From assembly GCA_001630475.1 (NCBI GenBank), contig KV419411.1, positions 208,337 to 272,336 of the forward strand: DNA of 64,000 nt, written 5' to 3'. Origin of the DNA: Sistotremastrum niveocremeum HHB9708. Its lineage: Eukaryota > Basidiomycota > Agaricomycetes > Sistotremastrales > Sistotremastraceae. The first letter of the stretch is position 1, and each line of letters begins with the position of its first letter. The translations under genes and the position numbers were made by a program. This document shows, in pieces, positions 26,521-63,656 of the stretch. The notes below the pieces were generated by a model. It did not search any database and was not told the origin of the DNA. It saw nothing but the letters and a program-made list of their open reading frames with translations.

Positions 26521-26577
26521 GTCTTACTTTCTGTTCGAGTTGTGGCCTAAGTCACCTCAGGTCACTCCACAACCAAT

Positions 26578-31115: not shown

Positions 31116-31123
31116 ATCACAGC

Positions 31124-31639
31124 TAGAGTTTGAAAGTCCGGTTGCGACTGGACTTTTTCACTTTTTGCCCGTGACTGGTAACTGCCGGTCCGGTTGCCTG
31201 TCAAAATTTTGCATGACTGGCAACTGCAACCGGTTGCAGGGTCCGGCAACCAGTCATATAAAGACCAGTTGCTTGACCAGTCATGGCCAGCAACTGAGGT
31301 CATAACTGGTGTAAAGCATTATTTTAATCAATTATATATTACTTTGGGGCCTTATAAGTGGTCATATAGTATCTAGTAACACATAGGGACACTATATAAT
31401 AGAATATATGATGAATATATGGCCATAAATGATCACTTGACACCCAAAATACCATGGGAACACCCTGTCTGAGGGCCCTTAAGGGTCCTCAGTTGCGACC
31501 ACGGTTGCAACTGGTCATGACTGCAGTTGCCAGTTGCCTGATTTTCAGAAATTCAGATGACCGGCAACTGCAGTCCAGTCACGACCCCACCACGACCTGC
31601 GGTTGCCTGCAGTCACGTGGACTGGACTTTCAAACACTA
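31124..31639. mobile_element. hAT MITE, family I, complete copy 1
   Basis: Ends TAGAGTTTGAAAGTCCGGTT and the inverse of TAGTGTTTGAAAGTCCAGTC, with 8-bp duplications ATCACAGC (31116-31123, 31640-31647). The interior carries many GCAACTG/CAGTTGC motifs and a central AT-rich block (CACTATATAATAGAATATAT), with no ORF. An 8-bp duplication and TAG-start TIR define hAT elements. Confidence 0.9.
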
Positions 31640-32834: not shown

Positions 32835-33795
32835 ATGCAATCAATCTTTCGCGATACTTCATCGGATCCCTCACGATACGCATGGTATGATATCTTACGA
32901 AGCATAGCGCAAATATCTCCCATACCTGGACTGGAAGGGGTCGTCGACCTGATTGAACACGCGGACAGATCCCTCCTGAGCCTCAAACAGTCAAAGTGCG
33001 TCTTTCAACTCTTTGAATGTTGAGGACATATCTTTGAAAATGAAATCATTGCATTGATAGAGCGCGATGCGAGACCATACTACAGGGTTGCATTCAGATT
33101 TGGGCTCTCGTGAAAGAAGCAGATAGAACAAAGTCCGAGACCTACCTCGAAGACCTCCGCGCGTACGTATCATTCAGTCCGCTAAGATGCTTAATCGAGA
33201 CTCAATGGGTCTTCCGCAGACTGTTGAAAACCTTCATAAAGGCCGGGACCTAGAACACTGGACCGACCAGAACAAATCTAAGGTCTGGTGGATTGTGAAT
33301 AGAAGGATGGTGGACAAACGCATGGAGAGCCACAGTCTCTCGGTTCAGAAAATGCTGGAACTGCTCATCGTAAGTGATGTATGAGATTGTTTCGAAGGTG
33401 CCGCGACACAATCGGCCTTCTTGCACAGACGCACCGCATACTGCAGAGCGGGATCCAGTTAGATGCCGTCGGCGGCAAGCTTGATAGCATTGACGAAAAG
33501 CTTGTGAACATGGATGACCTACTCATCCGCTTCACCAAGAATTTTATTGTCTCTACTGATGCAGAACAAGCGGACGCAGACTTGTCTGCATGCTCGTCGA
33601 ACCAGATAGACAAGCAGCTTTCACCTGCGGATGAATCCGAAGTACGAAAGGCGATGGTATGGCTTGTTGATTGGACATTTTTCTGTTGACACATTCTTCG
33701 TTCAGAATTCTATTCAACAAAATTGTAATGGCGCGCCACTCTGGAGTTCCTTTACCTTTTCCTCACTATCCAATCACTTATCATGACCTCCGGCC
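32835..33795 (+). pseudogene. Pseudokinase family copy A, 5' part (broken)
   Basis: Homologous exon by exon to copy B at 44749: exon 1 32835-32995 (161 nt, MQSIFRDTSSDPSRYAWYDI), exon 2 33061-33162 (102 nt, ARCETILQGCIQIW), exon 3 from 33220, then the KLDSIDEKLVNMDDLLIRF exon and HYPIAYHDLRP. Relative to copies B and C, exon 3 has 5 extra bases after TTCATAAAG, shifting frame. The coding sequence is then cut at 33795 by a hAT MITE; the rest of the gene lies inverted at 35965-36629. Host gene relic. Confidence 0.85.
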
Positions 33796-34004
33796 TAGAG
33801 TTTGAAGGTCCAGTCCACGTGACTGCAGGCAACCGAAGGTCGTGGTGGGGTCGTGACTGGACTGCAGTTGCCGGTCATCTGGATTTCTGAAAATCAGGCA
33901 ACTGGCAACTGCAGTTATGACCAGTCGCAACCGTGGTTGCAACCGAGGACCCTTAAGGGTCCTGGGAAAGGGCATACCCAGGGTATTTTGGGTGTCAAGT
34001 GGGT
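33796..34004. mobile_element. hAT MITE family I, first half of a copy split by an inversion
   Basis: Starts TAGAGTTTGAAGGTCCAGTC right after its 8-bp target CTCCGGCC (33788-33795) and stops near the element centre. The matching second half is at 36630-36939, next to the inverse target GGCCGGAG. Together they make one full-length element. Confidence 0.85.
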
Positions 34005-34674
34005 ATATTAAAGCCTCACCTACCCTTGCATCAAAGGCTCGTCGACCGTTATCGAAGTTCAAAGATGAACTCTTTGAACTGAGGAGCAGGTTCTCGGATT
34101 GGAAATGTAGATAGTGAATGTATGCTTCGTTAAACTGAATATATTGATTTTGTTGACTACTGAACAGATGGCAAAATGACTATTTGAGGGCTCGGCTAGG
34201 TGTCTGAATCAAATCGTAAGGCTCTCTAGTGATTCAGCAGACGGTCTCTGTGACTCGTTCTGATGTCTCTGAGGCTCAGGCGACTGATAAGGAGCGCACT
34301 GGCTCTGATCTGGGGGGGAAATCTGTCTTATTTTTCTGGCTACCTACACTCGTCCTTATATACCTGAGCTACTCCTAGTGTCTTAATTATTTATCCTAAG
34401 CTCCGTGGGGTCGCTACACCATCTCGTAAGTTACTCCAATACGTTTAGGCATGATTTGAATGCTAATTTCCGGCTCCAAGAGGTCCGTCCGACTGTTTCA
34501 GGGTCTTGCTGTGCTGAACTGCATGGTTTCGGGGCGGAGAGCATGTGGAGAAGTGGGGACCGAGGTTACTAGACTTGTGGAGTCGATCAGGGACGTCGGA
34601 GAGTGATGGTGGAGCTCTCGGAGCTCGAGCTATTGGGCTGTGCACTGATTTCGGTGAGTGGAGTGTCTCGCTTA
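34005..34674. other. Interior of the inverted segment, unassigned
   Basis: No gene. A stretch around 34250-34420 has a TATATA box and an end CGCTACA that could be part of an LTR, but no partner or PPT is visible. Confidence 0.3.
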
Positions 34675-35964: not shown

Positions 35965-36629
35965 CGCCTCCTATCAATATCTGTGACTGCAGAGATGGAT
36001 GTAAACAAACGATATTCTCAACGTGTGGAAGGATATAAGCGGATATATACGCACGGAGTGAAAGTCATTGTGGAGGATAGAATTGGGGGATAAATTGTGA
36101 AGATGATGGAGCGCGGCTGCAGTTTGGATAACCTGAGGATGTCTATGAGCAAATTCAAATCAATAAATCGTTGGCCCGCTTCACCCAAGATATCCGCGTA
36201 TTGACATCGACTGAGTAATGCTTAGAGTATCTTCGTAGATCTCCCAATGGGAAATGTTCAAATAAGAGGACACTGATGGCCTGCGTAAACGTTGAAGAGG
36301 AACGTATAATTCGAATGACCTACAGTGAGGTTGACCGGTCTCCTTCCCCTTGTGTTAGGTTCACCATCCCAATGAACTCCACTATATTGGGGTGCCGAAC
36401 AGATGACACCACAGCAAGTTCCCGAGAGAAACGCTTAAACATATTATTATATGACAATTCGTGGATGATAAGTTATTCGATTGAAGCTTACCCTGTGCAC
36501 TGTTTCGGGAGACACATCATCCTGCTGATACTGGAAACGCTTCACTTGTACCTTGAGAGTCGATCCTGTCAGCTTGCTAGTCCACGTGTCGTACTCATCA
36601 AACGATTCTATATCTCCAATAGGCCGGAG
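35965..36629 (-). pseudogene. Pseudokinase family copy A, 3' part (inverted)
   Basis: On the minus strand the reading resumes exactly where 33795 stops: RPIGDIESFDEYDTW, KVQVKRFQYQQDDVSPETVH, then exons RFSRELAVVSSVRHPNIVEF, VLLFEHFPLGDLRRYS and QTAAALHHLHNL with introns at the same places as copy B. Homology fades after the ATATTGATAGGAG exon start at about 35975. The kinase-like part therefore lacks its C-lobe. Confidence 0.85.
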
Positions 36630-36939
36630 TAGGGTTTTAAAGTCCGGTCACGACTGGACTTTTTCCATTTTTGCCCATGACTGGCAACTGCCGGTCCGGT
36701 TGCCTGCCAAAATTTTGGGCAACTGGCAACAGGACTGCAGTTGTGGTCCAGCAACCAGTTGCCAAAAAGACCAGTTGCCTGACCAGTCATGGCCGCGACC
36801 TGAGGTCACAACTGATCTAAACCATTATTTTAATCAATTATATATTACTTTTGGGTCTTATTAGTGGTCATATAGTGTCTAGTAACACATAGGAACACTA
36901 TATAATACAATATATGATGAATATGTGCCCATAAATACC
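36630..36939. mobile_element. hAT MITE family I, second half of the split copy
   Basis: Begins TAGGGTTTTAAAGTCCGGTC next to target GGCCGGAG (36622-36629) and ends at the element centre (ATGAATATGTGCCCATAAAT). Completes the half at 33796. Confidence 0.85.
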
Positions 36940-37139
36940 TAGTGTTTCAAGGTCCAGTCTAGGTGACTGGAAAAAACCGGTAACTGGACCGAGGCCGGAC
37001 TGTAGATAACCGGACTTTAAGTTGCAGTCATAGTCAATTTTATAATTCTCGGTCACCAGTCATCCGACACCTGAAATTATTCGGCAACCGGTCAGACCGG
37101 TCCAGACCGGTTGCAACCGATTTCAGCCGAGAGCAAGTC
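36940..37139. mobile_element. Diverged hAT MITE family I fragment
   Basis: Starts TAGTGTTTCAAGGTCCAGTC and carries the typical CCGGTTGCAACCG motifs, but has only one terminus and an interior unlike the other copies. It abuts the inversion joint. Confidence 0.6.
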
Positions 37140-37147
37140 CGACGCGC

Positions 37148-37661
37148 TAGGGTTTTAAGGTCCAGTCATGACTGGACCTTGGCCCTTTTTTCTCATAACC
37201 GGCAACTGCCGGTCTGGTTGCGGACCCAATTTTTGCATGACTGGCAGCTGCAACCGGTTGCAGGGTCTAGCAACCAGTCACAAAAAGACCAGTTGCCTGA
37301 CCAGTCATGGGCAGCAACTGAGGTCATAACTGGTATAAACCACTATTTTATTCATTTATATATTGTTTTTGGGTCTTATCAGTGGTCATATAGTGTCTAG
37401 TAATACTTAATAACACTATAGAATGCAATATATGATGAAAACAAGGGTATAAAGACCCACTTGAGACCCAAAATACCCTGTGACCACCCTGTTTGGGGAC
37501 CCTTAAGGGTCCTCAGTTGCGACCACAGTTGCGACTGGTCACAACTGCAGTTGCCAGTTGCCAAATTTTCAGAAATCCAAAAGACCGCAACTGCAGGTCC
37601 AGTCACAACCTGACTGCAACTGCGGTTTTTTGCAGTCACATGGACTGGACCTTAAAACCCT
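37148..37661. mobile_element. hAT MITE family I, complete copy 3
   Basis: Ends TAGGGTTTTAAGGTCCAGTC in inverse orientation; 8-bp duplication CGACGCGC (37140-37147, 37662-37669). 514 bp, non-coding. Subterminal hairpin GGTCCAGTCATGACTGGACC. Confidence 0.93.
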
Positions 37662-37669
37662 ACGACGCG

Positions 37670-38047: not shown

Positions 38048-38902
38048 TAGGGTTTTAAGGTCCAGTCCATGTGACTGCAAAAAACCGCAGTTGCAGTCAG
38101 GTTGCGACTGGACCTGCAGTTGCAGTCTTTTGAATTTCTGAAAAATAGGCAACTGGCAACTGCAGTTGTGACCAGTTGCAACTGTGGTCGCAACTGAGGA
38201 CCCTTAAGGGTCTCCAAGCAGGGTGATCACAGGGTATTTTGGGTCTGAAGTGGGTCTTTACTGTAGAAAAACAACCATAGCGGCGTGTCCCCTGTCCCCA
38301 GGGTCCGCCGCGCCGCTATATTTTCAAATTGTCCCCTGTCCCTTTCGCTATAAATTAATAAATAAATCATTAAAATATTCCGAAAAATCTCGAAAATATT
38401 CCCAGGCAGGCGGAATCATTAGATGTGTTGGCCCGAGGCATTGGCGGCGCGAAATTCAATGAATTACAATGGTTTATTATACTTTAAAGCTGTTTTTTAT
38501 GCTTTGTCCCCTGTCCCCGGACCCTGTTGCCGCAGCGCCGCAGTGTACTTTCCGTGTCCCCTGTCCCCACCCCCGCCGCAGTGGTCGTTTTTCTACAGTA
38601 TACCCTTGTTTTCATTATATATTGGATTAAATAGTGTTATTAAGTCTTACTAGACACTATATGACCACTAATAAGACCCAAAAACAATATATAAATGAAT
38701 AAAATAGTGGTTTATACCAGTTATGACCTCAGTTGCTGCCCATGACTGGTCAGGCAACTGGTCTTTTGGTGACTGGTTGCTAGACCCTGCAACCAGTTGC
38801 AGCTGCCAGTTATGCAAAAATTGGGTCCGCAACCAGACCGGCAGTTGCCGGTTATGAGAAAAAAGGGTCAAGGTCCAGTCATGACTGGACCTTAAAACCC
38901 TA
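38048..38902. mobile_element. hAT MITE family I, copy 4, carrying a nested insertion
   Basis: TIRs as in copy 3, 8-bp duplication GGCTCACC (38040-38047, 38903-38910). Length 855 bp; subtracting the nested element and one TA leaves 516 bp, matching other copies. Confidence 0.93.
38262..38598. mobile_element. Tc1/mariner-like MITE nested in the hAT MITE
   Basis: Inverted ends CTGTAGAAAAACAACCATAG / CTGTAGAAAAACGACCACTG, flanked by a TA on each side (38260-38261, 38599-38600). The intact family copies read TCTTTATACCC at this site, so the TA duplication is directly seen. Interior is GC-rich with repeated GTCCCCTGTCCCC; no ORF. Confidence 0.9.
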
Positions 38903-38910
38903 GGCTCACC

Positions 38911-40378: not shown

Positions 40379-40887
40379 TAGTGTTCCAAGGTCCAGTTGC
40401 CGTGACCGGTGGCAACCGGCAGTCGCGACCGGACCGTGACCGGACCGCAGTTGCCGGTTGCCTAGGTTCTTGAAAAATCAGGCAACCGGCAACCGCAGTC
40501 ATGACCGGTCGTGACCGTGGTCGCAACCAAGGACCCTTCAGGGTCCCCAACCAGGGTACCCAGAGGGTATTTTGGGTCTCAAATGGGTGTTTATGGTGAC
40601 ATATCTGGTACATATTGGTCTCTATATGCATATACCACATCATATGAGGTGTATATACAGCATATATAATATAATAATGATTAAAATATTTATAAAAGAC
40701 CAGTTGTGACTGGAAAAACTGGCCATGACTGGTTGTGCAACTGGTCGCAGCCGTGACCGGTCACCGGACCGCAACCGCAGTCGCAGTTGCCAGTCACACA
40801 AAATTTTGGACGGCAACCGGACCGGCAGTTGCCAGTCACACCCTCCGGGGGTCAAAAGTCCAGTCGTGACTGGACCTCAGAACACTA
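40379..40887. mobile_element. hAT MITE family I, complete copy 5
   Basis: Ends TAGTGTTCCAAGGTCCAGTT / TAGTGTTCTGAGGTCCAGTC; 8-bp duplication GGTACGGT (40371-40378, 40888-40895). 509 bp. Confidence 0.93.
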
Positions 40888-41653: not shown

Positions 41654-41949
41654 ATGACCCGCAGTAAGAAGACCGGGCCTGACACTTCGCCCGTCGTTAC
41701 ACGTGTCAGGACACTGACAGCTAAAGCAAAAGCCGCAGCGGATGCTGATACATCAAAGAAACAAAGCGTCAAAAAAGCAAAGGCAGCAGCTAAGAAGAAA
41801 TCAGTTACCTCGGCTGCCAAACCCTCTACCCCTCCTACCCCTATCGATGTCGACTCTGAGTCTCCTTCTTCCCAGACTCCTGCGGCCTCCGAGTAGGCTT
41901 CGTCATCGCAGGAAGCCACTGGTACCGACGCTGGAGAAACGGAGACGGG

Positions 41950-42736
41950 TAGGGTTTTAAGGTCCAGTCCATGTGACTGCAAAAAACCGCAGTTGCAGTC
42001 AGGTTGTGACTGGACCTGCAGTTGCGGTCTTTTGGATTTCTGAAAATTAGGCAACTGACAACTGCAGTTGTGACCAGTCGCAACTGTGGTCGCAACTGAG
42101 GACCCTTAAGGGTCCCCAAACAGGGTGGNNNNNNNNNNNNNNNNNNNNNNNNNNNNNNNNNNNNNNNNNNNNNNNNNNNNNNNNNNNNNNNNNNNNNNNN
42201 NNNNNNNNNNNNNNNNNNNNNNNNNNNNNNNNNNNNNNNNNNNNNNNNNNNNNNNNNNNNNNNNNNNNNNNNNNNNNNNNNNNNNNNNNNNNNNNNNNNN
42301 NNNNNNNNNNNNNNNNNNNNNNNNNNNNNNNNNNNNNNNNNNNNNNNNNNNNNNNNNNNNNNNNNNNNNNNNNNNNNNNNNNNNNNNNNNNNNNNNNNNN
42401 NNNNNNNNNNNNNNNNNNNNNNNNNNNNNNNNNNNNNNNNNNNNNNNNNNNNNNNNNNNNNNNNNNNNNGTTATTAAGTATTACTAGACACTATATGACC
42501 ACTGATAAGACCCAAAAACAATATATAAATGAATAAAATAGTGGTTTATACCAGTTATGACCTCAGTTGCTGCCCATGACTGGTCAGGCAACTGGTCTTT
42601 TTGTGACTGGTTGCTAGACCCTGCAACCGGTTGCAGCTGCCAGTCATGCAAAAATTGGGTCCGCAACCAGACCGGCAGTTGCCGGTTATGAGAAAAAAGG
42701 GCCAAGGTCCAGTCATGACTGGACCTTAAAACCCTA
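41950..42736. mobile_element. hAT MITE family I, copy 6, with assembly gap
   Basis: TIRs TAGGGTTTTAAGGTCCAGTC in inverse orientation; 8-bp duplication GAGACGGG (41942-41949, 42737-42744). 787 bp including 341 N (42129-42469). Known sequence totals 446 bp, so either the gap length is nominal or, as in copy 4, something is nested in the gap. Confidence 0.9.
42129..42469. other. Assembly gap (run of N)
   Basis: 341 N inside a hAT MITE. Collapsed repeat assembly is the likely c3ause, since near-identical copies lie at 37148 and 38048. Confidence 0.95.
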
Positions 42737-43131
42737 GAGACGGGTGGTGCTGATGAGGAAGATGATGACGATGACATAGTACGTTGCTGTTCCGTTACAT
42801 GAGCGTCAACTCATAAAGACTATCTAGATTGAGATGGACGCACTGGGAGAGTTGCCACCGTCCAGACCGACGAAGAAGGAGTCCGTCCGAGACCTCTTGA
42901 CGATCTTCTCGGATACTGTGAAGGTTAAGTTCACAGTCAAAGACGACGACAACGAAGTCGTCGCAGTTCAGACTCTGAAAGGTCGTTGGTGCCTTGTCTG
43001 TCGGTGAGTCAGATCATTACTTTCGTATACTCCATGACTCACTCGTTCTCAGAGAGGATCCAAAGTTCGCTGGAAGCGCTTGCCGCGGAGCCTTCAAATT
43101 AGGCGGAAATTCTTCTTGCCGGCAGCACATT

Positions 43132-43637
43132 TAGAGTTCCAAAGTCCAGTCACGACTGGACTTTTTCCAATATTCCCCGTGACTGGCAACTGCGACCGGT
43201 TGCCAAATCCAAAATTTGCTGTGACTGGCAACTGCAACTGCAGTTGCGGTCCGGCAACCAGTCATCAAATGACCAGTCACGACCAGTTGCCTGCCCAATA
43301 TATTATATATTTTAATCATAAATATATTGTTTTACCCTATTATATATGGTCTATTGGTGTCTATTGATCATATATATACTGTATATACATCATATACCAT
43401 GAATACATGGTCATACATGGGGAAAATACCACTACATGACCCTCTGAACACCCTGTTTGGGGAGCCTTAAGGGTCTTCCCTGAGCATCAGTCGCGACCGT
43501 GGTCACGACTGGTCATGACTGCAGTTGCCGGTTGCCTGATTTTCAGAAACTGAGGCAACCGGCAACTGCAGTCCAGTTGCGACTTCGGTCCGGTTGCCCA
43601 ATACGACCAGTCACGTGGACTGGACCTTGGAACTCTA
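43132..43637. mobile_element. hAT MITE family I, copy 7, without target duplication
   Basis: Both ends complete (TAGAGTTCCAAAGTCCAGTC / TAGAGTTCCAAGGTCCAGTC inverse), 506 bp. Left flank AGCACATT and right flank GTCTTGGT differ, unlike every other full copy here. Confidence 0.88.
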
Positions 43638-44748
43638 GTCTTGGTTCAACAGTCGCACAATTAGTTTCAATTGGCGAGAAATGAGACTTGTGAATCAGAT
43701 AAAATGCGAAGTAATTACGAGCTCGCTTAGCTACGCTTTAAGCTGTTGTGAAAAGAACGAGGGCTGTGAGACCCTGAATTACTGAGACATCAAATCGAAA
43801 AAATGACTTTTGCTCCAACAAAGTTCTCGAAATGCACTTCACGGGTTTCTTTTTCTGGGATGTCTGGCCGTGTAGATTTTTATTCTTTTCCTTTGATATG
43901 TAAAAGATATTTTGAGCGTAAAATTCTCCTGTGCGATCCATCCGTCTTGACACAAAGTGAGACTGCGAAATGCAAAGCAAGAGAGGTACCGCTTACCTAA
44001 GCACATCGCTCGCGGAACTTTCGTCCGGCTTCCGACAAAGGCTCATCGGAAAACTTAAAAAACACTCACTGCCTTGACACCATTGATTCTTTTCGCCCTG
44101 CTTGACTAGTGGACCACGGAGCTCATAAAAATGGTCATATGAAGGCGAAATCGTCAAAAATCAAGAAGGCCTCGAAGGCCAAACTTCAAAGAGAAGCCGA
44201 AAGAACTCGCTAAGGAGTCAGGACAATGGACTCGGAACACTCTAGGCCTATCCTCCAGATTGTTATTCATACTCATTGCTCTAAATTCGGTTTTCCACGG
44301 ATGATCAATGTAACAAACGACGATAGAGGTCTACGAGAAAATGAGGCAAAGAGTCTCCCTCCAGTCTGAAACTGAATTCGATCGGGTGTCGATTGTGCTG
44401 GCACCACATTTCTGTCCCATATCTCTTGTCAGTGACTCAGATGCGGATGTATGCTACTGCTCCCCGGATGGTGACGGTGAGAATTACCGGCGTCAATCCA
44501 GTGGATCAACCTACACGTGTCCATTCTTTATTGGATACTTCGCGCGTCTAAGTCTCGCAACCTGGTCCGAGATACTTCGAGTGCATTAACCGCACCGACA
44601 CGAGAGCAAGATAGGGAACTGGGTGCGGCCCCTGTGGTCTGCAGACTGCGCACTGTGCAGAGGCGATGCAAGGGGTCAACTGAATTTGTTGCAGGCACCA
44701 CACTTATACTAGCAGCCCACTTCACACGCGCTCTTCTTTGTCTCCCCA
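43638..44748. other. Intergenic, containing an EBP2 5'-end relic
   Basis: Part of it, about 43930-44210, is a diverged copy of the EBP2 promoter and first codons (47525-47770): shared GATCCATCCGTCTT, CGCTTACCTAAGCAC, TCGCTCGCGGAAC, GACTAG-GATCCACGAG-like and AAGGCCTCGAA blocks in the same order. The rest holds no recognised gene and serves as upstream region of pseudokinase copy B. Confidence 0.75.
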
Positions 44749-47013
44749 ATGCAATCACTCTTCCGCGATACTACGCCAGACCCCTCTCGCTATGGATGGT
44801 ACGGTCTATTACGCAGCGTGGCGCAGATGTCCCCCATATCTGGGCTGGATGGAGTCGTTGACCTGATTGAGCGCATCGATAGATCCATCTTGAGTCTCAA
44901 GCAGTCGAAGTCGATCGCGTCTCTCATTGTTGAGGAAACGTACTTACATCACCTCGATAGAGCTCGATGCGAAACCGTCCTTCAGGGATGCATTCAGATC
45001 TGGGTGCTGGTGAAGGATGAGGAGAGGAAAAAGTCTGAGTCTTATGTCGCGGACCTCCAAACGTACGTCATCTAGAATTCCAGTCGTCATCTGAATGTTC
45101 ACTCAAGCGTCATACGATCATCTTCAGACTTCTGAAAACTTTCATAAAAGACCTGGAAGAGTGGACTGACCAAAATAAATCCAAGGTTTGGTGGATTGTG
45201 AACCGAAAACTTGTCGACAAACGTGTGGAGGAACACAGTCTCTCCGTTCAGCGATTGCTAGAGCTGCTTCTCGTAAGTGGTATGCAAGATAAGTCAAAGA
45301 TATAGTATAATGATTAGTCTTGCACAGGCGCATCGCACAATCCAAACCGGAAATCAGTTGGAAGCCGTCGAGGACAAGCTCAATCACATGGATGAGAAGC
45401 TTGGTAATATGGATGATGTGCTCACGCGCTTTACCAAGAATTTTTCAGTTTCGACTGAAGCAGATCAAGAGGACGCAGACCGGCCCGCCATTCTCAGGAA
45501 CGGGAGGGACGACGAACTTTCGCTCACAGATGAAATCGAGATACGGGCTGCCATGGTGCGTAATCTCCTTTGCGAAATTGGCCTGTAATCCATCTTATTA
45601 ATCCTTCGATGCAGAGATCTCTACGAGAGCGTGATCCAGGGGGTGCAATTTTGATGGCACGTCAGTCCGGAGTTCCTTTATCTGCTCCTCATTATCCAAT
45701 TGCATATCATGACCTTCGCCCTATCGGCGATATAAAATCTTTCAATGAGTACGACACATGGGCTAGCAAGCTGGCAGGATCGACTCTCAAGGTACAGGTG
45801 AAGCGTTTCCAGTATCGAAAGGATGTGTCCCCCGAAACGGTACACAGGGTAAGATTGAATTTGTTAAGGTCTCATCTACCAAATGGGAATACAATAACGC
45901 CACATTTTAGCGTTTCTCTCGGGAACTTGCTGTCGTGTCATCTGTTCGGCACCCCAATATAGTGGAGTTCATTGGGATGGTGAACATAACACAAGGCGAA
46001 GGAGACCGATCAGCATCACTGTGGGCCAATCGAATAATTTGTTTCTCTCTAGGGTTAACATAGATCATCAGTGTCCTCCTGTTCGAACATTTTCCATTGG
46101 GAGATCTGCGGAGTTATTCTAAGCGTTATCCCGTCGATGTGAATACTCGGTTATCTTGGGTGAGATCGTGACAGCGATTTACAAATCCTCATTTGCTCAC
46201 ATTCACCCTCAGATTATCCAAACGGCAGCCGCGCTCCATCACCTTCACAATTTGACCCCCAATTCTGTCCTCCACAATGATGTTCACTCCGTGGGTGTAT
46301 ATTCATGTGTATTCTTCGACACGTCAAAGATATCACCCATTTACACCCCTCTCTGCAGTCACAGATATTGATAGGGGAGCATGGCGTTGCCAAGCTAAAT
46401 TGTTTCACGTATGCGCGTAAGATCCATCAAGCCACTGAGGCCCCGTTCACCGTTGCTATCGCCGCCTCTACCACTTCCACTACCCGTGAGGGACGAGCAA
46501 GATCCGAGGCCAATACCCGGTCAGACAATGATGACAGAGAGATGTATCAGTGGCCCCGAACCTGTAAGGCACCCGAAACAGTTGGGCGTTGGGACGCCAC
46601 AATGCGAACGGGTATTCCTGGAAGACTGTCCCTCGCATCGGATGTTTACAGTTGGTCATTGACAGCCGTGGAAGTGAGTCGCTCTCACCTCATGCCGGTG
46701 TAGCGCATCTTATCCATTTTGAAAGATACTCACATCCATTGATCCGTTTGATTGGGCTTGTTGCCCTCGTGTAGCTGAAGATGGGAGACTGATGAATAGC
46801 TGCATCACTCGGGAGGCTCTAATTGATTCAGAACCCTTTCCAATTGATACCCAAGATCGATTGGGATTTGAGAATCCAGAAACTCGAGAGAAACTCTGGA
46901 ATTTGTTGGAACCTTGCTGGGCCAAAAATCCGGATACGAGACCGTCCATCACACATATGCTTCACCAACTCCATAGTTTCCTGAGGTCACTCATGACGCC
47001 GGTTCAGCTGTGA
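44749..47013 (+). CDS. Helical-domain pseudokinase, copy B (intact)
   Basis: Ten exons: 44749-44909, 44961-45062, 45128-45272, 45328-45555, 45615-45848, 45911-46020, 46072-46159, 46213-46290, 46365-46673, 46726-47013. Total 1743 nt, 580 aa, in phase. Residues 1 to about 230 are all-helical: SGLDGVVDLIERIDRSILSL, CIQIWVLVKDEERK, VWWIVNRKLVDKRVEEHSLS, QLEAVEDKLNHMDEKLGNMD. Then a kinase fold: beta-3 Lys in VQVKRFQY, alpha-C Glu in FSREL, VRHPNIVEFIGM, hinge LLFEHFPLGDL. But no glycine loop, HRD region is HNDVHS without the Asn, and DFG is NCF (KLNCF). So binding may remain but catalysis should be lost. C-lobe DVYSWSLTAVE and CWAKNPDTRPS are kinase-typical. First donor (AA|GTCGAT) is weak. A downstream frame (47111) may be extra C-terminus. 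Possible signalling or cell-death executor; inference. Confidence 0.75.
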
Positions 47014-47720
47014 GGACCGCGTTAGAGATGGTAGCGTCCCAGAACTCGATTGACGGTCAGCTCATTGCCGCCATCCAGTACTATGCTGACGGAAAATAGG
47101 TGAACGTTCGATGGGTGATCCTGCCGCTTCTTTGAAAGAGAGAATGGAGAGTTCCAGGTCTGATATGAATACAAATGACGAGCATTCAGTGAATTCCTCC
47201 TCGCTTGCCCTAGAGTCCGACCCAGACGCGAAACTGTTGCCAGTTGAATGGTTAAACAATTCTGAGCCTATGAGAGGCCGTGTCCTGGAGAAGTGGGAAA
47301 GATAATCGGGATTGGTCACTCTCCCAATCTGTGTCGGTAGGAAGTGCTGTTGAGCCAATGGCCGAGTCTTTGACCACAAACGGCGGGAAGCGAAAGAGGG
47401 AAGCGACAAGCAGGGAGAGGATGGCGAAGAAAAGGATAGCATGAGATGTTCGGTGAACTATATGAATTTTCTTCCTTGCTATTGATCTGTACAAGTTATC
47501 TGAAACCTGTAATTTTCTCATCTGATCCATCCGTCTTCATACAAATTGGAAGTGAACCTGCAAAACGCAAAGCAAAAGACGTATCGCTTACCTAAGCACG
47601 TCGCTCGCGGAACCTTCTCCTCATCCGACCTCCGACAAATTTTTCGTCGTAAAGGTCACTTCCCTAACGTCTCCAACTCCATTCCCTTCGCTCGACTAGC
47701 GATCCACGAGTCTCATAGCA
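47014..47720. other. 3' region of copy B and EBP2 promoter
   Basis: A frame at 47111-47305 (acidic, Ser-rich; DPAASLKERMESSRSDMNTN) could be a spliced tail of copy B, but I found no clear intron linking them. Bases 47525-47720 are the EBP2 5' region, duplicated at 43930. Confidence 0.45.
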
Positions 47721-49699
47721 ATGGGCCGATCAAAAGACAAGTCCTCAAAAGTCAAGGAGGCCTCGAAAACCCCTAACGGGAAAGCGAAAGTTTCAGTAAC
47801 GGCGACCGCGAAGGAGGGTATTGTTGGGAAGAAGGGCAAGGTTGAAGTCGTCCCGGGCACCACTAACACGACGACGACGACCTTAAAAGATAAAGGCAAA
47901 GGAAAGAAGGTGGAGGAGAAGTCGAAAGAGCCCGCGAAGGACAAAGGAAAAGCCAAGGCCAAAGCCAACGGCGGCAAATCACGTCTAGAAGCTACACTCG
48001 ACGCTCTCGAGGCACTCGCTCCCGAAGATGACGAGGACGCAGACGATGAAGATGGAGATTGGGAATCTCTCCCTGACTCTAACGTTGACTCTGCCGACGA
48101 ATCTGGAGGCGACGACGCTGGAGTTCCAGAAGACGAACTCATCAAGATCGCCCAGCAGCTCAAAGCTCTTGAATCTCCTCTTGCCTCTGCTCAGGCCTCT
48201 TCATCTCGAAAAGCCTCTACTTCGAAAGCTTCGTCCTCGAAGGAGAAGGGTAAAAAGAAGGTCGACGTGGTGATGGACGCTTCGAGCGAGGATTCCGACG
48301 TTGATGACGACGAGGATGGGATTGACGAAGAAGGGATGCAGAAGATCCTGGAACTCTTGGGCAACGACGGACTCGACGACGTTGCCAAAGCTCAACTGGA
48401 CATCCTTGCTGGTTCAGCCGACGACGACGACGAAGAAGAAGGCAGCAAAGAATCTGACTCTGGAGAGGAAGGAGCAGAGGGTCTGGAAGACGTTGAAGCG
48501 AGTCTTGATGAAGGCTCTGAAGATGACGAGGACGAAGAGGCCGAGAAAGAGGAGGAAGAGGACGATGATGTCGAGTTAGATGCACTGTCTGACTCTCAAG
48601 CATCACTCGACGCTGACGCCGTTCCCCGTCAAAAGATAACCATCAATAACAAAGTACCTCTCCCGCCTCTACCACTATCAAATTGCTAATGTATCTGATC
48701 ATAGGTGGCACTGGATCGGATTCGAGAAACGATCGAATTAGGTGACCTTCCGTGGACGGAAACGCTGGTGGTGACGTATCCCGAGTCTATCGAAGTCGAC
48801 GTGGACGATGATCTCAATCGTGAACTCGCATTGTAAGCGTTCCTCTCCCTTCACTCCTTCAAAAGTCGAGACTAAACAACATGCAGTTACAAACAATCCC
48901 TCCACGCCGCCGAAACGGCCAAATCACTCGCAGCAAAAGCGAACCCTCCCCTCCCATTCACTCGTCCATCAGACTACTTCGCAGAGATGGTCAAGTCAGA
49001 TTCGCACATGGAACGTATCCGTCAACGACTCCTGGACGAGAGTGCATCGATTAAGAAGAGTCAGGATAAGAAGAGGGAGAGGGAAGGGAAGAAGTTCGGG
49101 AAGGAGGTGCAGAGGGAGAAGTTGAAGGAACGGGAGAAAGGGAAGAAAGATATGGAGGAGAGATTGAAGGGTCTTAAACGCAGTATGTACCCTCTCTATT
49201 CACCTTTACGCGTCTCCGAGCAATCTCTAACTCCGGTTTTACAGAACATAAAGATGCGACAGACGAGAAAGACGACGAAGCATTCGACATAGCAGTCGAA
49301 GACGCCATCTCATCCCAGCCTTCATCAAAACGTCAACGCGCAAATTCAGCCGGGGACAGCAGAGGTCGAGGTCGTGACAGCTCCCGAGGCGATCGTGGAT
49401 CCAGAGGACGCGACGGATCTCGTGGAGGACGGGGTGGAGGCCGAGGAATATCGAGAGAAGGTCGTGATGCAAAGTTCGGCTTTGGAGGCGGCAACAGACG
49501 GTCGAAGTCGAATACGAGAGAGTCGACTGAGGCGTTTGATGGATCTGGTGGTCGCGGCGGCCGTGGACGGGGCGGACGAGGTGGAAGTCGAGGTGGATTT
49601 GGAGGTAGAGGCGGGTCTAGTCGAGGCGGTGGTGGTGGTGGGAGGGGAACGAAGAGGGTTGGAAGGGGACGGAGGATGTCGAGTAAGAGTCGGTCGTAG
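47721..49699 (+). CDS. EBP2: rRNA-processing protein EBP2
   Basis: Nucleolar factor for 60S ribosomal subunit and 27S pre-rRNA processing. Exons 47721-48653, 48705-48832, 48887-49182, 49245-49699 total 1812 nt, 603 aa. N-terminus: Lys/Ser-rich basic (MGRSKDKSSKVKEASKTPNG) then long acidic stretches (EDEEAEKEEEEDDDVELDAL). Ebp2 domain: VALDRIRETIELGDLPWTET, ELAFYKQSLHAAETAK, LPFTRPSDYFAEMVKSDSHM, ERIRQRLLDE and the charged helix KKFGKEVQREKLKEREKGKK, with DAKFGFGGGNRRSKSNTRES near the end. The C-terminus is extended with an RGG/GGRGG-rich tail (SRGRGRDSSRGDRGSRGRDG), as in nucleolar RNA-binding proteins. Complete and probably functional. Confidence 0.93.
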
Positions 49700-49973
49700 A
49701 CCTTATTTGTGTTCGTACTGGTCGTGGTGTTGTTGCAAAATTATCTAGCATTTATTCATAATGGATTTGAATACGCACGCCGAGCTTGGGATTGATAAGA
49801 GTAAGAATAAAGCGTACTACGGAAATACAGGAAATATATTGCATAACTCCACAACAAGAAAAGGAGGGGATGCTACGTCAGTAGCAATATACGAAAAGAA
49901 CATCACGACTCGAATGTCATAGACGGGACAAGATGCCAATATGACGGAAGGAAGAGCCGCAGGAATGCAAAAA

Positions 49974-51845
49974 TCAATCCGAGATAATCTCCGTCATACG
50001 ACTCTCACTGTCCTCGCCTACGCCTCCAATCTTATGCAACCAGAACGGACCGACGGGATCATCATCATCATGGAACACTAAATGCCAAAAGACCCAATAA
50101 GTTACCATCAAGATAATCGAAGCGGGGGCACGTACCAGTTGTCCACGATCCGAGGACACCATAGCATGATCTTATACCGCCAATCTGCACACCTTCAGAG
50201 GACCAAATAACATGTCCCTGCTCTCCACTCGTCTAACGCCCAATCAGCCATGTCCTCTCCTCATCATGATCACGAAGGAGGACTCACAAAATGCCACCGA
50301 ATCTGCCCATCGCCAGTCATACATACCCACCCAACGATACTCGCCATAAATCCCTCCCCATTAGCCACGAGGCCGCCTTCGAAATGGATCTTTGGACGGC
50401 TTGGGAAGAGAGGATGGGGAGGCCCGTGGGCGAGGATTCGGAGATCAACTTTGATGAAGCGGAGGGCTTCGGAAAATGAGGGGTCGATGAGGGGGTTAGC
50501 TACTTGGTGTGATACGAGGTGATGATTGAACTCTGCGACACATTTAAAATCATGTTTCAGTCGAAAGAAGGGATGAAGACATACGTATAAGATCACGATG
50601 ATCGCAGAATGAAAAACCAACTTGCCACCTCCCCTCAATCCCCGCCCAGTCATCCTCCCTCCTCCCTCTCAACCCCGACGCCGAATTCGCCTGAATAAAA
50701 GGTAATGCCAAAGGTCGAGTGATAGGTGAAGTTGGGATTGTGACGCGGTCTATGAAGTTGAGTGTGAAGACGTGGTGGATGTGTCGGAGGTGAAGCCAAT
50801 TTGTGAGAATTTTGTGGTTGTGCGGGTCGGAGTCGAGGGATGGTGGGCGGTTGATGGGGACTGCGGTGAGGGGGCTTTCTTCGTAGTCGATTTCTGGGTC
50901 TTCGTCGGTGGAGTCGACTGGGAGAGGGGAAGATGCGTTGAGGGACTCAATTTCGTCGATTCCGGTGTCGCTTGCGCTCGGTCCTGCATGGCTGCTCGTC
51001 GCGGTACTCAATTCCGCGGTCGAACTCGGATCCGCAGCAGAAGCGCCAGCACCAGCACCAGCATTATCACCCCCAGCACTCGGAGTCGGCGCATCAGGAT
51101 CCAAAAAAGGTCCATAAAGCGCCCCAGGCGTATAATGCGAAATGTCATAAACATACGACCGACTATTCAGCCTCATATCGGGCGTATGATCGATCTTCGT
51201 CAGACCGATGAGAACATGGAGATGAGACCGTAATTGAACTTCGCGAGGAGATGGAGTCCAGAGTTGGTGGTGGAAGATGAGTTGGCCGTAGGGCTCTGTG
51301 AGCTTTATGAGCCAGATTATGTTTTTGCCTGTGGGAATTTTGTCCCCGCCGCCTCCGCCGAGCTCGATGTTTTCGTCGTCGTCTGGGGTTTGGATTGGGG
51401 GGAGTGCGATTGGAGATGTTGGAGGGTGATATGAGCTGCTGGATGGCGATGGAGATGATGATCCAGACGGCGAAAGAGGAGGTGGCGAAGGGAATACAGC
51501 AGCCGTAAGTGCGATGTCTAGCAACGTCTCATACAGCTCTTCCCTCTCCGTAAGCTTCACTCTCTTCAGCCCGCCTGCACTCCCAACAATCGTCTCAGCT
51601 CTGAATCGTTTCTGCAAGCTCACCATCCAGTCATATTCGTCCCCAGCTCTCGGATGCAGGTTGATCTGCATAGCAGGCCGTGGGTCGTCGAATGTCTGAA
51701 GAAATAGGGATTTCCATATGAACGCCTTTGATGGGTGGGTTACTTGGAGAGCGTATGAGCGGGATGTACGTGAGAGGCATGAGAGAGTCAGAGCGTCGCA
51801 GTTGAGCAATATCTGGTCGATGAGTTCTTGTGGTAGTTCGTCCAT
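49974..51845 (-). CDS. F-box domain protein (DDDDPVGPFW type)
   Basis: Likely SCF adaptor. Exons 51845-50585, 50532-50288, 50217-50136, 50077-49974 total 1692 nt, 563 aa in phase. F-box at the extreme N-terminus: MDELPQELIDQILLNCDALT then LSCLSRTSRSYALQV. A central segment of over 150 residues is low-complexity (SPSGSSSPSPSSSS, GAGAGASAADPSS). The C-terminal part has WAGIEGRWQVGFSFCDH, PHPLFPSRPKIHFEGG, GDGQIRWHFV and ends VFHDDDDPVGPFWLHK, a block I associate with a common agaricomycete F-box family. It converges on EBP2 with about 270 bp between stops. Target unknown. Confidence 0.85.
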
Positions 51846-53079
51846 CGTTATCTCTTTTCAAAGACGATGCTCGGGTTAGGGCCTGCTTGTTCGAGCTGCG
51901 GTTAGACTAGTGATGGCGTTATAAGGAGGCTTACAGTAGGTCGACGTCGGCGATGAGATGAGACTCGGCGATCCCAGGCTGTCGCGTCATGGTCGTGACG
52001 AAACCAATTGCCGTTATAGCCGAGTCGGCTCCGGGCGCTTTCGGCTTTCGGCCTGAGTGAAGCTCTCAGTCCAGTAGAAAACTCCGCCGGCCGAAGGTCA
52101 GCCGAGGTTAGCGCCCAGCACCAGCCTGCGCCGGCCTACACTGTCCCGACTGATTTCATTGTATAGGGTTAGCTCAGCGTCTCGCGAGCCATCAAAGGCC
52201 AATGGCCTACATAACTGTGCAATTTCTGAGTATACTTTTATTTTTGGTACAATGTGGGCCAAATGGCCCAGACTGGCCTGCACTGCTTTGCAATAGTACT
52301 AGTTATAATACTCATTCGATGCTTCTACGAGTCCGATCTCAATTTTCTATTGTACGAAATTTTCTGGGAGGTCACCATTAGCCACCAACCTATGCTGAGT
52401 CTCGCCTGTCACTAAATACAGCAGGCCGGCGAAGGACATCAACCTACAATGACCTTTGCCTATGCAGCAATTCCTGAACACCCCGGGCCATCACATGCCA
52501 CCAACCCATCCAGATCCTAACACATCAATCGGCCGACAATCAACAGACAGATAGCGAAGGTCAACTGGCTTGCGTTGGCCTGCATCGACGCTGAGAGGCA
52601 CGAGACCGGATGACACGGCTGGATATATTAGGCAATGCGGGCCATCGCAGGCAAATGGCCCGCGGTGAGCTGATCCGAGAGGCCGTTTTAGGGGGATGGG
52701 CCACCGCAGGCCGTTGGCCTTCGCCGACTTTTATTCCGGCGGGTTTTGCACTCTCTCAGTCGCTCTCTCAGTGAACCCAAGTGCCAAAAGAAGTTTTGTT
52801 TTGAAACAGCGTTCAACAGAACCCATCTACTTTGAGACTTGTAGGAGCAGTACTCGCCACGTCCAAAATTTATTGTCCCACGCCACAGTTGTGGCCGTTA
52901 TCTCCGAAATGCCTTAGCTCGACAGAGCTCTCGACCTCGATATATTGGTTATAGACACAAAGTACATTGGTAGATTTTACTCTCTGGACCTTTGAAAGTA
53001 TACAGAGAAATTATCACGCAAGGCAGTCGTCAGTAGCGTCCAAAAGGGTCTCATCTCAAACAGGCATGCCAACGAGGAG
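51846..53079. other. Intergenic with a GGCC-rich repeat block
   Basis: Between about 52050 and 52770 the sequence is full of TGGCC/GGCCA and GCCGGC repeats. Weak inverted ends (CTCTCAGTCCAGTAGAAAACTC against the inverse of GGGTTTTGCACTCTCTCAG) hint at an old TIR element. No target duplication could be fixed. No gene recognised. Confidence 0.4.
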
Positions 53080-55175
53080 TCACGCGCGACAACAACTTTC
53101 GCTACAATAACTTGTGGACTCAGCGAGTGACGTCTCATCTTGCAAAACAGGCTCCATGCTGATGCAGTCGGGCCGTCGAGTGGGCTCAAAATCCCAACAA
53201 TCTTGACATAGAAACCACAGGTCCGGATAACCATGGAACTCAAGAGGTACACATGCATCGGAAACCCATGATTCTGTCTGATTTGCCTGCGGAGCTAAAA
53301 CGCTTTTGTAGCTGAGAACACCCCGATGCCCCGTGGTACACACTTACTGGGTGTAAAAATAAATGGTGGTTTAGATCGGATCATCTCCCTGATGACATTG
53401 GCAGGCTTTTTGCAATACTGGTATGGGATTTTGGAGGCTATCACTTCCTGAAAGTACTATTCAATATTATACGGAACACCGGACGTGAGTGCAAGCTTCA
53501 GCCTACAAGTATAAGGCAACCAAAGGCCCAGACGTCGCTCGCAGTAGTAGGTTTGGTCGTTGCGTTTGAGTCTTCACACGCATCCAATAATTCAGGTGCC
53601 ATCCAGTTGACGGTTCCTTTGATTCCCGTAGTTGAGGCATAATTAGATCTGGAAAGCGAAGGGTCTGCATCGGCCAGGCTGGCTAGACCAAAGTCCGCAA
53701 GGACTGCAATGCCGTCGTCGGAAACCAGCACGTTGCTCTAGAACTAGATGTCAAGACATATTCAAGATAAGAGGAGGAAGAGCGTACGCCTTTCAAATCT
53801 CCGTGAACGATACCTTGAGAATGCAGAAAATGAAGACCCTCAAGCACGTCCAGCAGCTTCATCGATCATCAACTGTGAAAAAATGTGAAGAGCATGGAGG
53901 TGGGACTTACCAAGAATGCTCGTTTGACCCAGGGATTTCTTTGATATAACTGATCACAGTTCCATTTTTCATCCATGGCGAGACGAGAGAAAAAGGCGAA
54001 CCATCGCCATCTTGAGCCAGTGTATAAGTCGGAAAGAAACAATAGCCTAGAAATGGTAGAACATTTGAATGTTCCATCCTTGCCCACAAACACATCTCCT
54101 TTTTGATGTTCTGGAAAAACACAGTCGACTGGTAAGCAACAAAAGCATGTGAAACTAAGCCGGTCAGCGCACCCTGAGTAACGAACGCCTGTCTCGTTTT
54201 GCGATGTGAACATCTCGTATGACTTTGACAGCGACTGGCTTAGAATCCAGTTTAGCCTTATGGATGTCTGAATAACCTCCCCATGCAACAAGACTCATAT
54301 CAGAATTGGCATAAGAGATTAAGCCACTAAGATTCGGGATTTCATCAGGAAAAAGGGTCCCGTCTTTATAGCCATGTCCCCCCCTCAGCGATCTCCATAG
54401 CGCGCTGTAGGTGCCCATAGCTGCTATGGAATATTGGTAAGTGTCTGGAATATTCTATCGGCAGCCATAGAAGCCTATGACACATTACATGATTTTTCCG
54501 AGGGGGGTACATGGCCATGGATCCGGAGGGTGTTTTCCTGATGTTCTTCGTCTGAGGAGAAATGTGTGCCGTTCGAAGAGAAATATGTGCTAGTCGAGGG
54601 GGGAGGGATAGTCCGATTTATTGTTGTGAGTAAACGGATTGGCGGGAGGCTCAGGGCAAATTCATCGCTCCCAAATTCACTGCGCGTCCTATGTCTCGCC
54701 TGCGAATTGAATTCCAATTCTTCAAGTTCTTCGCGCGACTGACTCGGTCGCGGCGGTTGCGATAATAGCAGCGGTGCTTCTAGTGATAAGCTCTGTCGCT
54801 TGAATGAAGGAGCACGTGGAGGTGGGGACATAGCCTTTCTCTTTCCCGTCACAAGCTGGATCGCATGGTGACTCGATGCGTCGGCTGTCTCCTCAGGTCG
54901 ATCAACCCTATTAACTTGAACGGAAACTCAGCGATGTGTCACCTAGCTTGAGTGAAGTAGCGAGTATTCTGACCATTCGAATTGGACAGGCTGATTGGTC
55001 CATCTGATTCACTCAGTCTCCTATCTTTCCCGGCTCTCGGTACAGAACTCGAGTTCAAGTTTTCGTGGTTGTGGTATGCTGGGTACACTGGCAGGATGTC
55101 GTACGCGTATTGACGTGAGGATCCGGAGGAATCCAGATTTCGCCCGGTGGACATGGTGGATGGGATGGCGTTCAT
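53080..55175 (-). CDS. TKL-type serine/threonine protein kinase (active)
   Basis: Agaricomycete TKL kinase with a disordered N-terminus. N-terminal exon(s): MNAIPSTMSTGRNLDSSGSS and a Ser/Pro-rich second exon (PPRAPSFKRQSLSLEAPLLL). Kinase domain from about 54420: AWGGYSDIHKA (glycine loop), VAVKVIRDVHIAKR (beta-3 Lys), KEMCLWARMEHSNVLPFLGY (alpha-C), GIVHGDLKG + SNVLVSDD (catalytic loop HGDLKxxN, split by an intron), ADFGLAS (DFG), NWMAPELLD (APE), DVWAFGCL, and C-lobe LCQDCWDFEPTRRPD ending at TGA 53080. All catalytic residues are present, unlike its pseudokinase neighbours. Several exon borders, especially 5', are approximate; Met at 55154 is another possible start. Confidence 0.72.
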
Positions 55176-55555
55176 TCACGGGGGGTGCATCCATCGCCTC
55201 CTATTTGATCTATTCCCATGCTGCACAGCAATTCTCAAATAGCGATTTTAGGAAGTGGGAAATTCAGGGACTTCTATAGTAAACGCCTACTAGTATCCCG
55301 TCCCATGCCCTGTAGTCAAAATCAATTGGTCAAAATTGTTCCACTACGTTGACGATCGACAAGATCGACAAGGTCTCTGTCAACGCCCTTGGTGTCTTGA
55401 ATTTGACTACAGTATGTCAGCAATAATGAAGTGTCAACGACGGATAATCCAAGCGCTAGCAGCAACATGATGGCTGAGTTTGAAGTCTTTTCAAATTCTG
55501 GGTCCGATTTTGTCTGGCTTTCTCTCCGGCAAACTTTCAGGTCCGATGTATTCTC

Positions 55556-58343
55556 TTATATCAGATTCCGCATAGTATGAAGCAGTGATCCAGGTCGAAC
55601 ACCCTCAATCAACAGCGCAAGGAGTGATACAAGTAATGATAAAACTATTATTACTCTTGCGTAGCGGCTCAGCAGTCCGACATCAGGTACTCCTTTCGAT
55701 GAGAACACAAATGACGTGCTAAGACTGGTTTCAACAGTTTCCTTGGGCTCGGGAGCAGTTTCTGCAGTATTTTCAGAGTCTTCAGCCTCAGGCACATTTG
55801 GCCGTCCATTCAGCAGATGGTCGCGTTCTGCATCCGGCTCAATGACAAGAGAGGGTGAAGTCAAAGACCGGTTTGCATCTGCATCGTTTCCAAAAGAGCC
55901 AACAGTTGACAATCGAGTTGTCTCCGGACTGATACCAGGCAGTGTGAGAGAGTCGAGGGCGTCTGACGGTTCATTCTTGTCTTGATTCTCGAAAGCTGGA
56001 GTTTGATCCAGCAAAGACTCATCTACTGCTCGTCAGCGTGATGGTGTATGGCGGTTTAGGAGCTAACCTTCATTCGATATTTGAGAGGTTGACGACTCTC
56101 TCCCACCTAGATCATCGGCGGGAAATTCAGAGACGGCAGTTATGAAGACCTTGAGTTGATTGAGCATATTTGCGATGGATGGCCTTGCGTTTGGATGTTT
56201 TGCCCAGCACGGTTCTAGAAAATTTCAGAGTTTGTTTCGACTAATCTGATTCCCAAAGCCCATTTTGTCTCTGGTGCCTATTGGGAAAGGATCCTTCTTC
56301 CGCAATGCGTCACTGGGGACTGTGTTTACCCATTGCCACAATAAGTCTGGCTCAGCGGCCCATTCAAAGGGATCAACAGACGTAAGAATCTTTCAGGAAA
56401 GATCAGAATAACGACGATAGCTCGTGCTCCGCCATGCGGCGACGAAATATACTCACTGACACGGCAGTCAAGCCCCAGCTATAAACATCCGATGCTTTCG
56501 ATAAGACTCCGGAAATCCCGGTTCGTGTTTCGTCGTCCCAATGGGGCAGTGTCTCTGGTGCTTGGCAGGTTTTCGGCCATTCAAGCCCGAATGATGACAT
56601 TTGGGTGTTGTCAACCCAGTCGGTACTAGTTGCGATGTAGATTTCGCGCGAGTGAGTGAAACAATCTAGTTTGGCGACCCCATTGTCTCCTATCAATATC
56701 TGTGACCAGAAAATCGAGTCAATCAGGGAGTGTGCAATACACATCGGAAGTAAAGCCGCTTACAGAGTTGATGTTGTTGTGGATGACGGCGTTTGGCGTT
56801 AGACTGTGAAGGTAGCGAAGAGCTTCTGCGACGTCAAGGATCTAAGTAATATGTTAGTATAAGCATAATAATTTGAGCCGTTCAACTGTAGCATCGAAAC
56901 TCACCCAAGACAATCGAGTGTGTACGTCAACAGAATAACGGTTCAAGTAGTTCCGTAAATTTCCGAATTGAAGATGTTCGAACAGAAGAACACTGTCAGA
57001 GAGGGTTTGCATAAGATTCGGATACGAGGAGAGAGATAACTTACAGCGCGGTCGATCGATCACCTTCTCCTTGAGTAAGATTGACCATCCCGATGAATTC
57101 TACTATATTCGGGTGCCTGACCCGCGATACAACGGCAAGTTCCCGAGAGAAGCGCTAAAACATCGATTAATGTGAATTTTCTGTCAATCCAGGCGTTATG
57201 GATTGCGGCGTACTCGGTGCACCGTCTCCGGGTCTGGCTGCGTTCCCTGATATTTGCTGGGTTTATAGTTGAAACGCTTAACTAGAACCTTGAGCGTCGA
57301 CCCGGTGAGCTGCCCAATCCATGTGTCGTACTCTCCATGAGTTTGAATATCCCCTATAGGTCGAAGATCGTGATAGGCGATTGGATAGTGAGGGGCAGGT
57401 AAAGGAACGCCAGATTCGCGTGCCATCAAAATTGCACCGCCGAGATCATTCTCTTGTATCGATTTCTGCGTCCAGGGTTAAACACCAGCACAAGGGCGAA
57501 CCATTCTTTCTCACCATGGCAGCTCGCACTTCGTTCTCATCTTTAGGAGAAAGTTGATCTAATCTCCCATCTTTCTGAACTGCTAGCTTGTCTGCGCTTG
57601 CTTGGTCGACTTCGGTCGAAAGCACGAAATTCTTAGTGAACGCGGCTTCAGAACTCCAGACCTCCACCAGATGCGTAAGCTTGTCATCCATGTGGTCAAG
57701 CTTGTCTCCAACGGCGTCCAACTGATTTCCAGTCTCTAACGTGCGGTGCGCCTGTACACGTGTATCAGTCATGCCAAAGTAGCTTTGATGGTCGCGAACA
57801 ACTCACAAGCAGCAGCTCTAGCATTCGCTGAACAGAAAGACTATGTTCCTCCACGCGTTTGTCCACCATCCTTCTATTGACTATCCACCACACTCTGGAC
57901 TTATCTGGATGGGTCCCCTCTCCCAGATCATTTATGAAGGTCGTTAGAAGACTGCACGAGATTACCTAGGTCACTAAAGTACTGAGACAGACAGACAAAT
58001 AAGACGAACGTTTGAAGATCCACCACGTAGGTCTCAGATTCCTTCCTCTCCGTGTCCTTCAATAACATCGAGATTTGAATGCATCCCTGCAGTACTACTA
58101 GTACGGTTTCGCATCGAGCTCTGCGAATGAAATGATATCAGTTTTCCGTTTCAATGGATACCGAGATACTCGAACGACGAACCTGGACTGCTTGAGGCTT
58201 AGTATACCCCTATCCACGCGCTCGATCAAATCGACTACTTCATCCAGCCCAGGTAAGGGAGACATCTGCGCTACGCTCCGCCATACGCCATACCATGCGT
58301 AGCGAGAGGGGTCCGAGGCCCTGTCGCGGAAGACTGATCGCAT
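55556..58343 (-). pseudogene. Helical-domain pseudokinase, copy C, with membrane-anchor tail and an in-frame stop
   Basis: Same exon plan as copy B: 58343-58183, 58120-58010, 57951-57807, 57751-57515, 57465-57214, 57154-57045, 56992-56905, 56841-56764, 56699-56457, 56389-56068, 56025-55556 (2217 nt, whole codons). Helical domain as in B; exon 2 has 9 extra bases (VVL repeat). Kinase part: RFSRELAVVSRVRHPNIVEF, LLFEHLQFGNL, HNNINS instead of HRD, LDCF instead of DFG, so catalytically dead. In exon 10, where copy B has Trp (KLWNLL), a TGA lies at 56225-56227, after 529 codons. Frame is kept beyond it (EPCWAKHPNARPS) into a tail of about 150 residues ending in one transmembrane segment (RYARVIIVLSLLVSLLALLI). 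Either a young pseudogene, a truncated protein or a base error. Confidence 0.72.

Positions 58344-62021: not shown

Positions 62022-63656
<1,635 letters not shown>

Follow-up and report, generated by a model that had tools for sequence, protein, structure and literature searches.

Does a basidiomycete genome hold a counterpart of MLKL, in which a helical bundle is joined to a pseudokinase? The question is raised by a stretch of 64,000 nucleotides of Sistotremastrum niveocremeum HHB9708 (contig KV419411.1, here C18; C18:208337-272336), hereafter the window, to which all simple coordinates below refer. The genome amounts to 34.7 Mb in 111 contigs. The window contains genes coding for an N-terminal, probably helical region followed by a kinase fold in which catalytic residues have been lost. 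These genes form a family that is real, selected and local, smaller and more damaged than earlier described, with one clearly intact gene, P2.

P2 (44749..47014, forward strand) is composed of 10 exons encoding 580 amino acids, or of 9 exons encoding 597 if the 51-nt stretch 44910-44960 is retained; this stretch is the site of the first intron of P3, and in P2 it has a weak donor and is open in frame. The P2 introns are of the GT-AG type and 51-74 nt long, and no stop is met up to the gene end. Its first exons (44749..45555, residues 1-212 of the 580 amino-acid form) encode presumed helices and a heptad-like linker, while the following ones (45615..47014) encode the pseudokinase, recognized by exon reading, Pfam and an alignment with IRAK4 from the motifs VKRF, SREL, HNDVHS, NCFT, CKAPE and DVYSW. 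The second paralogue, P3, was read exon by exon on the reverse strand up to an in-frame TGA (56225..58343). Both genes share a common exon plan with GT-AG introns at matching positions, and are 65% identical over 554 codons. The first-pass annotation had placed three paralogues within 44749-58343: only P2 and P3 are found there, and the third copy does exist, at 32835-33795. The shared N-terminal region followed by a kinase was recovered in P2 and P3, exon by exon, with an N-terminal region of 212-218 residues instead of the 230-250 initially given. The all-helical character first given to this region is a presumption drawn from the sequence.

To assess the extent of the family, the N-region and the kinase part were each compared with the whole genome in six-frame, single-sequence searches, which may miss distant relatives. 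The close members of the family are P2, P3, the broken third copy (P1) and an inverted kinase half only, no further close copy being found in the 34.7 Mb. The kinase part yields a distant match on contig C9 (E 1.3e-4). A match of the N-region on contig C8 (E 0.33) was taken as chance, as reading of the locus showed no similar gene.

The kinase half matches PF07714 (E 7.4e-18 for P2, 4.7e-17 for P3 up to its stop) and also PF00069. Its solved relatives, among the best 60 of 609 PDB sequences, are headed by IRAK4 (E 1.6e-8) and include CTR1, WNK1, JAK2, FAK, MAP3K9 and others, which points to a TKL-like or tyrosine-kinase-like fold. The β3 lysine (VKRF) and the αC glutamate (SREL) are retained in P2 and P3, and the glycine loop is degraded, with no normal GxGxxG, both as previously proposed. 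In the alignment of P2 with IRAK4, HNDVHS pairs with HRDIKS and NCFTYAR with SDFGLAR. The DFG position of P2 is thus C-F-T, with Asp replaced by Cys and Gly by Thr, and likewise in P3 by homology; the residue preceding CFT is N or D, and the assignment of NCF or DCF to this position was one residue out of register. The corresponding motifs are HNNINS and DCFTHS in P3, and LHNDFHS in the inverted half. The replacement of HRD by HND or HNN was correctly noticed, but the HND of P2 still holds the HxD aspartate, which is lost in the HNN of P3. The HRDxK lysine is replaced by His or Asn. By our own reading of the sequence, HNDVHSSQIL, with normal spacing, would result if one P2 intron used an alternative acceptor located 6 nt further upstream. 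Mis-splicing as the source of the lost motifs in P2 and P3 is rejected, the GT-AG sites and the agreement between copies arguing against it. Because the copies share these changes apart from the HxD aspartate, ancestral loss is preferred over the parallel loss put forward earlier. As a rough control, 28 kinase loci were fetched from the genome in six frames, split exons and chance matches included: a DFG-like motif occurs in 24, HxDxK in 22 and both in 19.

The two halves of the protein are under purifying selection. Between P2 and P3, the ratio of non-synonymous to synonymous substitution rates (dN/dS) is 0.142 over 554 codons (bootstrap 0.084-0.193). It amounts to 0.091 (0.041-0.165) for N-domain residues 1-140, 0.217 for linker residues 141-225, and 0.135 (0.069-0.219) for the 329 codons of the pseudokinase part. 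These absolute values are rough because dS approaches saturation (1.3-2.1). Discarding the bootstrap replicates in which it was saturated left 496, 487, 472 and 444 of 500. The younger pair formed by P2 and the inverted kinase half, for which all 1000 of 1000 replicates were kept, gives a similar dN/dS of 0.139 (0.061-0.269) over 133 codons. The low ratios in both comparisons imply that the dead kinase is preserved as a protein, and the selected pseudokinase of the first-pass annotation is borne out: a kinase fold by profile, at least one catalytic residue lost (the DFG aspartate), and maintenance by selection. As residues needed for catalysis are lost and yet this state is kept by selection, the pseudokinase would most likely act by binding, as a latch, rather than by catalysis.

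How might such a protein work? The interpretation favoured here, tentatively and with somewhat less than an even chance of being right, is that P2 is an MLKL-like switch or executioner, as would be P3 in the part ahead of its stop or with the stop disregarded. Residues 1-140 or so may fold into a bundle of helices like that of basidiomycete MLKL-like domains, preceded by one additional helix, and residues 145-171 or thereabouts into a brace-like coiled linker. Some signal from upstream would alter the latch and release the bundle, and an active TKL kinase, for example that encoded at 53083..54418, might provide it; the bundle would then oligomerise and damage a membrane of its own cell, as in responses to non-self or infection. 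The layout, the pseudokinase residues together with the Pfam match, and the purifying selection on both halves count in favour of such a switch, as do the published fungal HELL-pseudokinase proteins and basidiomycete MLKL-like N-termini considered below. Of the MLKL plan suggested at the outset, the succession of N-region, linker and C-terminal pseudokinase stands, but the N-region has no significant sequence link to MLKL or HeLo.

This missing link is the first of several points that weigh against an MLKL-like function. The profile search of the N-terminal region, proposed beforehand as a check, returned no Pfam family at cut-off for P2, P3 or their N-regions, the best being a spectrin-repeat model (E 0.14), and no profile of the HeLo/HELL/BaMLKL superfamily, such as MLKL_N, reached its curated cut-off. 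None of 177635 PDB sequences was matched by the N-region with phmmer at E up to 10, and the N-region profile gave a single PDB match (E 2.9). As a bridge, the presumed MLKL-like N-termini of four NOD-like receptors (NLRs) of this genome were taken. Aligned by hhalign, the family and NLR profiles agree in the order of their first two presumed helices, with a non-significant P of 0.08. With hmmsearch, the N-domain profile has a best E of 0.91 outside the family among the six-frame kinase and NLR loci fetched, and the NLR profile picks up none of the family exons even with E allowed to reach 10. In six of the eight pairwise comparisons, 69-346 of 500 shuffles score as well as the true sequences; in three of the eight, the reversed sequences do better. 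Further from the N-region, P2 has no membrane segment (best 19-residue hydropathy 1.16), two of the three copies are damaged, and no NPHP3_N-type NLR lies in the window, the nearest listed being at C18:331638, about 59 kb past its end.

A few other comparisons of the N-region are more encouraging. One of the four NLR N-termini taken as bridge touches Pfam MLKL_N, below cut-off (E 0.011). The score of P3 with the NLR L047 is reached by a single shuffle out of 500, and that of P2 with L066 by 21 of 500, the latter alignment being co-linear over the whole domain with a shared K..WW stretch. Such likeness between the family and NLRs from one genome is a hint that falls short of significance. The empty searches count little against kinship, because the bridge profile itself misses the MLKL bundle in the PDB, where 4btf appears only at E 1.5 and in its C-terminal part. 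Helical moments of five hand-chosen segments of the P2 N-region are 0.56, 0.21, 0.44, 0.20 and 0.40, two of the five being not clearly amphipathic. The order of motifs in the N-region may resemble the basidiomycete MLKL_NTD pattern, an impression drawn from no search. PF17111, listed as PigL_N and the older name of which we take to be HeLo-like, has no match in the genome, and neither has PF22215, in a search that had no positive control. Across the whole genome, 47 NPHP3_N matches correspond to NACHT-type NLRs. Six NLRs (L047, L048, L049, L054, L055 and L066) carry long Ser/Pro-rich N-terminal extensions ahead of a possibly MLKL-like helical domain.

The transmembrane end initially ascribed to one copy requires a similar qualification. 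The frame of P3 continues past the TGA at 56227-56225 (codon 530) into 55556..56224 (reverse strand), where exon reading and hydropathy identify the remainder of the C-lobe, followed by an intron of 42 nt and a 156-residue tail. The latter does harbor a single segment of strong hydrophobicity (19 residues with a Kyte-Doolittle value of 2.8), located about 180 codons past the stop. No counterpart of this tail follows P2, and no second copy was found in the genome, one other match (E 1.5) being taken as chance. Membrane action through the tail is weakened because the tail follows a stop and P2 is devoid of it. For this lone stop among 738 codons, the candidate explanations are a recent mutation, an error of sequencing, and the end of a real, shorter product. 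Several in-frame GT-AG candidates for a splice skipping the TGA exist on paper, each of which removes conserved or long stretches; they were rejected.

The strongest competitor, which we hold to be a serious though less probable possibility, is a non-lytic scaffold: the helices would dimerise or dock, and the dead kinase would bind and regulate an active TKL kinase or another client, with no membrane damage. It accommodates the same pseudokinase and selection data, as well as the lack of a membrane segment in P2 and of a sequence link between the N-region and lytic domains. It also provides a role for the gene located directly downstream of P3 on the same strand (53083..54418, reverse strand). 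This gene encodes a canonical TKL-type kinase (HGDLKG, ADFGLA; Pkinase E 2.7e-35; exon joins by eye) that is probably active, judging from its motifs, and is a possible partner. However, the neighbour belongs to a family of about 40 or more loci by hand count, and the expectation of finding one within 10 kb of the cluster by chance is about 0.05-0.06 by hand estimate, making proximity a weak argument for a link. Related TKL-type kinases are densely clustered on contigs C50, C6, C42, C54 and C45, with 136 exon-level matches including the query gene. Linking this neighbour to an MLKL-like function leads to a bolder proposal, a two-gene necroptosis-like module. Its executioner would combine a TKL-derived pseudokinase with a basidiomycete MLKL-like bundle and stand beside an active TKL kinase in the role of RIPK3, and copies of the executioner would diversify and decay at a locus resembling those of incompatibility; we regard this module as quite improbable.

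A further explanation, rather unlikely in our judgment, is that an old gene was duplicated in a repeat-rich spot and is now being lost, without important present function. The state of the third copy speaks for it. P1 (32835..33795, forward strand) comprises the N-terminal part and the start of the kinase; its frame is lost near 33247, and its kinase is interrupted by a repeat element whose end occupies 33796..34001 (no strand assigned) and starts with TAGAGTTTGAAGGTCC. A kinase half, inverted, runs from 36629 to about 35970 on the reverse strand, beside the partner end TAGGGTTTTAAAGTCC. The same 8-bp flank, CTCCGGCC, is present at both broken ends, next to these repeat ends. A single insertion that duplicated an 8-bp target, with a later inversion, would leave such a pattern; "hAT-like" is a guess for the element based on the flank and the element ends. 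What speaks against this simple history is the divergence from P2, which is far lower for the inverted half (dS 0.39) than for the N-terminal part of P1 (dS about 1.2); gene conversion or a separate copy may possibly lie behind the inverted half. The stop in P3 and the lack of any further close copy in the genome also agree with decay. Against it, P2 is open through all its exons with GT-AG sites, and the younger pair still evolves at a dN/dS of 0.139. A view of the proteins as atypical enzymes, with a kinase that has slight activity or an unusual mode of ATP binding (P2 being an example), is highly improbable: P2 retains the β3 lysine, the αC glutamate and the HxD aspartate, but the glycine loop is degraded, the DFG aspartate and the HRDxK lysine are replaced, the HxD aspartate is also gone in P3, and most kinase loci of the rough control show the DFG-like and HxDxK motifs.

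The surroundings of these genes are rich in repeats. Interspersed repeats are located at 31118-31639, 33796-34010, 36624-37663, 38048-38903, 40474-40604, 41949-42737 and 43126-43583; some members of this repeat family are inverted, with complementarity of up to 100% over 268 nt, and the repeats cluster around the broken copy. P2 is flanked by diverged direct repeats (43875-44176 and 47464-47767), of which the right one runs into a reading frame starting near 47721, and the left one is an apparent decayed duplicate of that start; P2 therefore probably came with a local duplication. Elsewhere in the window, a terpene synthase (PF19086) is found at 11868-12617; the frame at 3262-4107, on the opposite strand, looks similar but has no Pfam match. 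A GH10 glycosyl hydrolase lies at 62922-63653 (E 1.5e-49). The two enzymes, the short introns and the NACHT-type NLRs are what would be expected in a filamentous basidiomycete. Two similar genes face each other at 26551-27851 (forward strand) and 29700-28072 (reverse strand); the second matches Esterase_PHB, and both have apparent cellulose-binding tails, judged by eye.

Several known systems can be compared with this family. Among the titles retrieved from the open literature, to which the search was confined, none reports a basidiomycete pseudokinase of this kind. Many TKL kinases have been described in Laccaria bicolor (PMC2838846); the kinase part of the family is TKL-like as in these expanded basidiomycete kinases, from which it differs by the loss of catalytic residues. 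PMC9815663 reports about 600 MLKL-like N-termini of basidiomycete NLRs (BaMLKL) with an extra first helix. A possible extra first helix is common to them and the present family, as is the co-linear, non-significant pattern with NLRs of the same genome, but the N-region is joined here to a pseudokinase and in BaMLKL to a NACHT domain. According to a figure legend in a 2025 review (PMC12881547), some HELL domains sit in proteins with kinase or pseudokinase domains, reminiscent of MLKL. The layout of these fungal HELL/HeLo proteins, as given in this legend, which provides no sequences, is the same, whereas no HeLo or HELL profile reaches cut-off in this family. As fungal HELL-pseudokinase proteins are thus already in print, at least in that legend, the family would be a variant of them. 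With the MLKL of mammals and plants, it shares the order of its parts, an N-terminal region, a linker and a C-terminal TKL-like pseudokinase; it differs by an N-region without sequence match and by what is presumed to be an extra N-terminal segment ahead of the first helix of the bundle. Should the N-domain be a four-helix bundle, P2 would be a concrete, testable basidiomycete example of the complete MLKL layout, such proteins being mentioned in the review legend without a described example (PMC12881547), and would open the question of whether pseudokinase-latched cell death is ancient or has arisen more than once.

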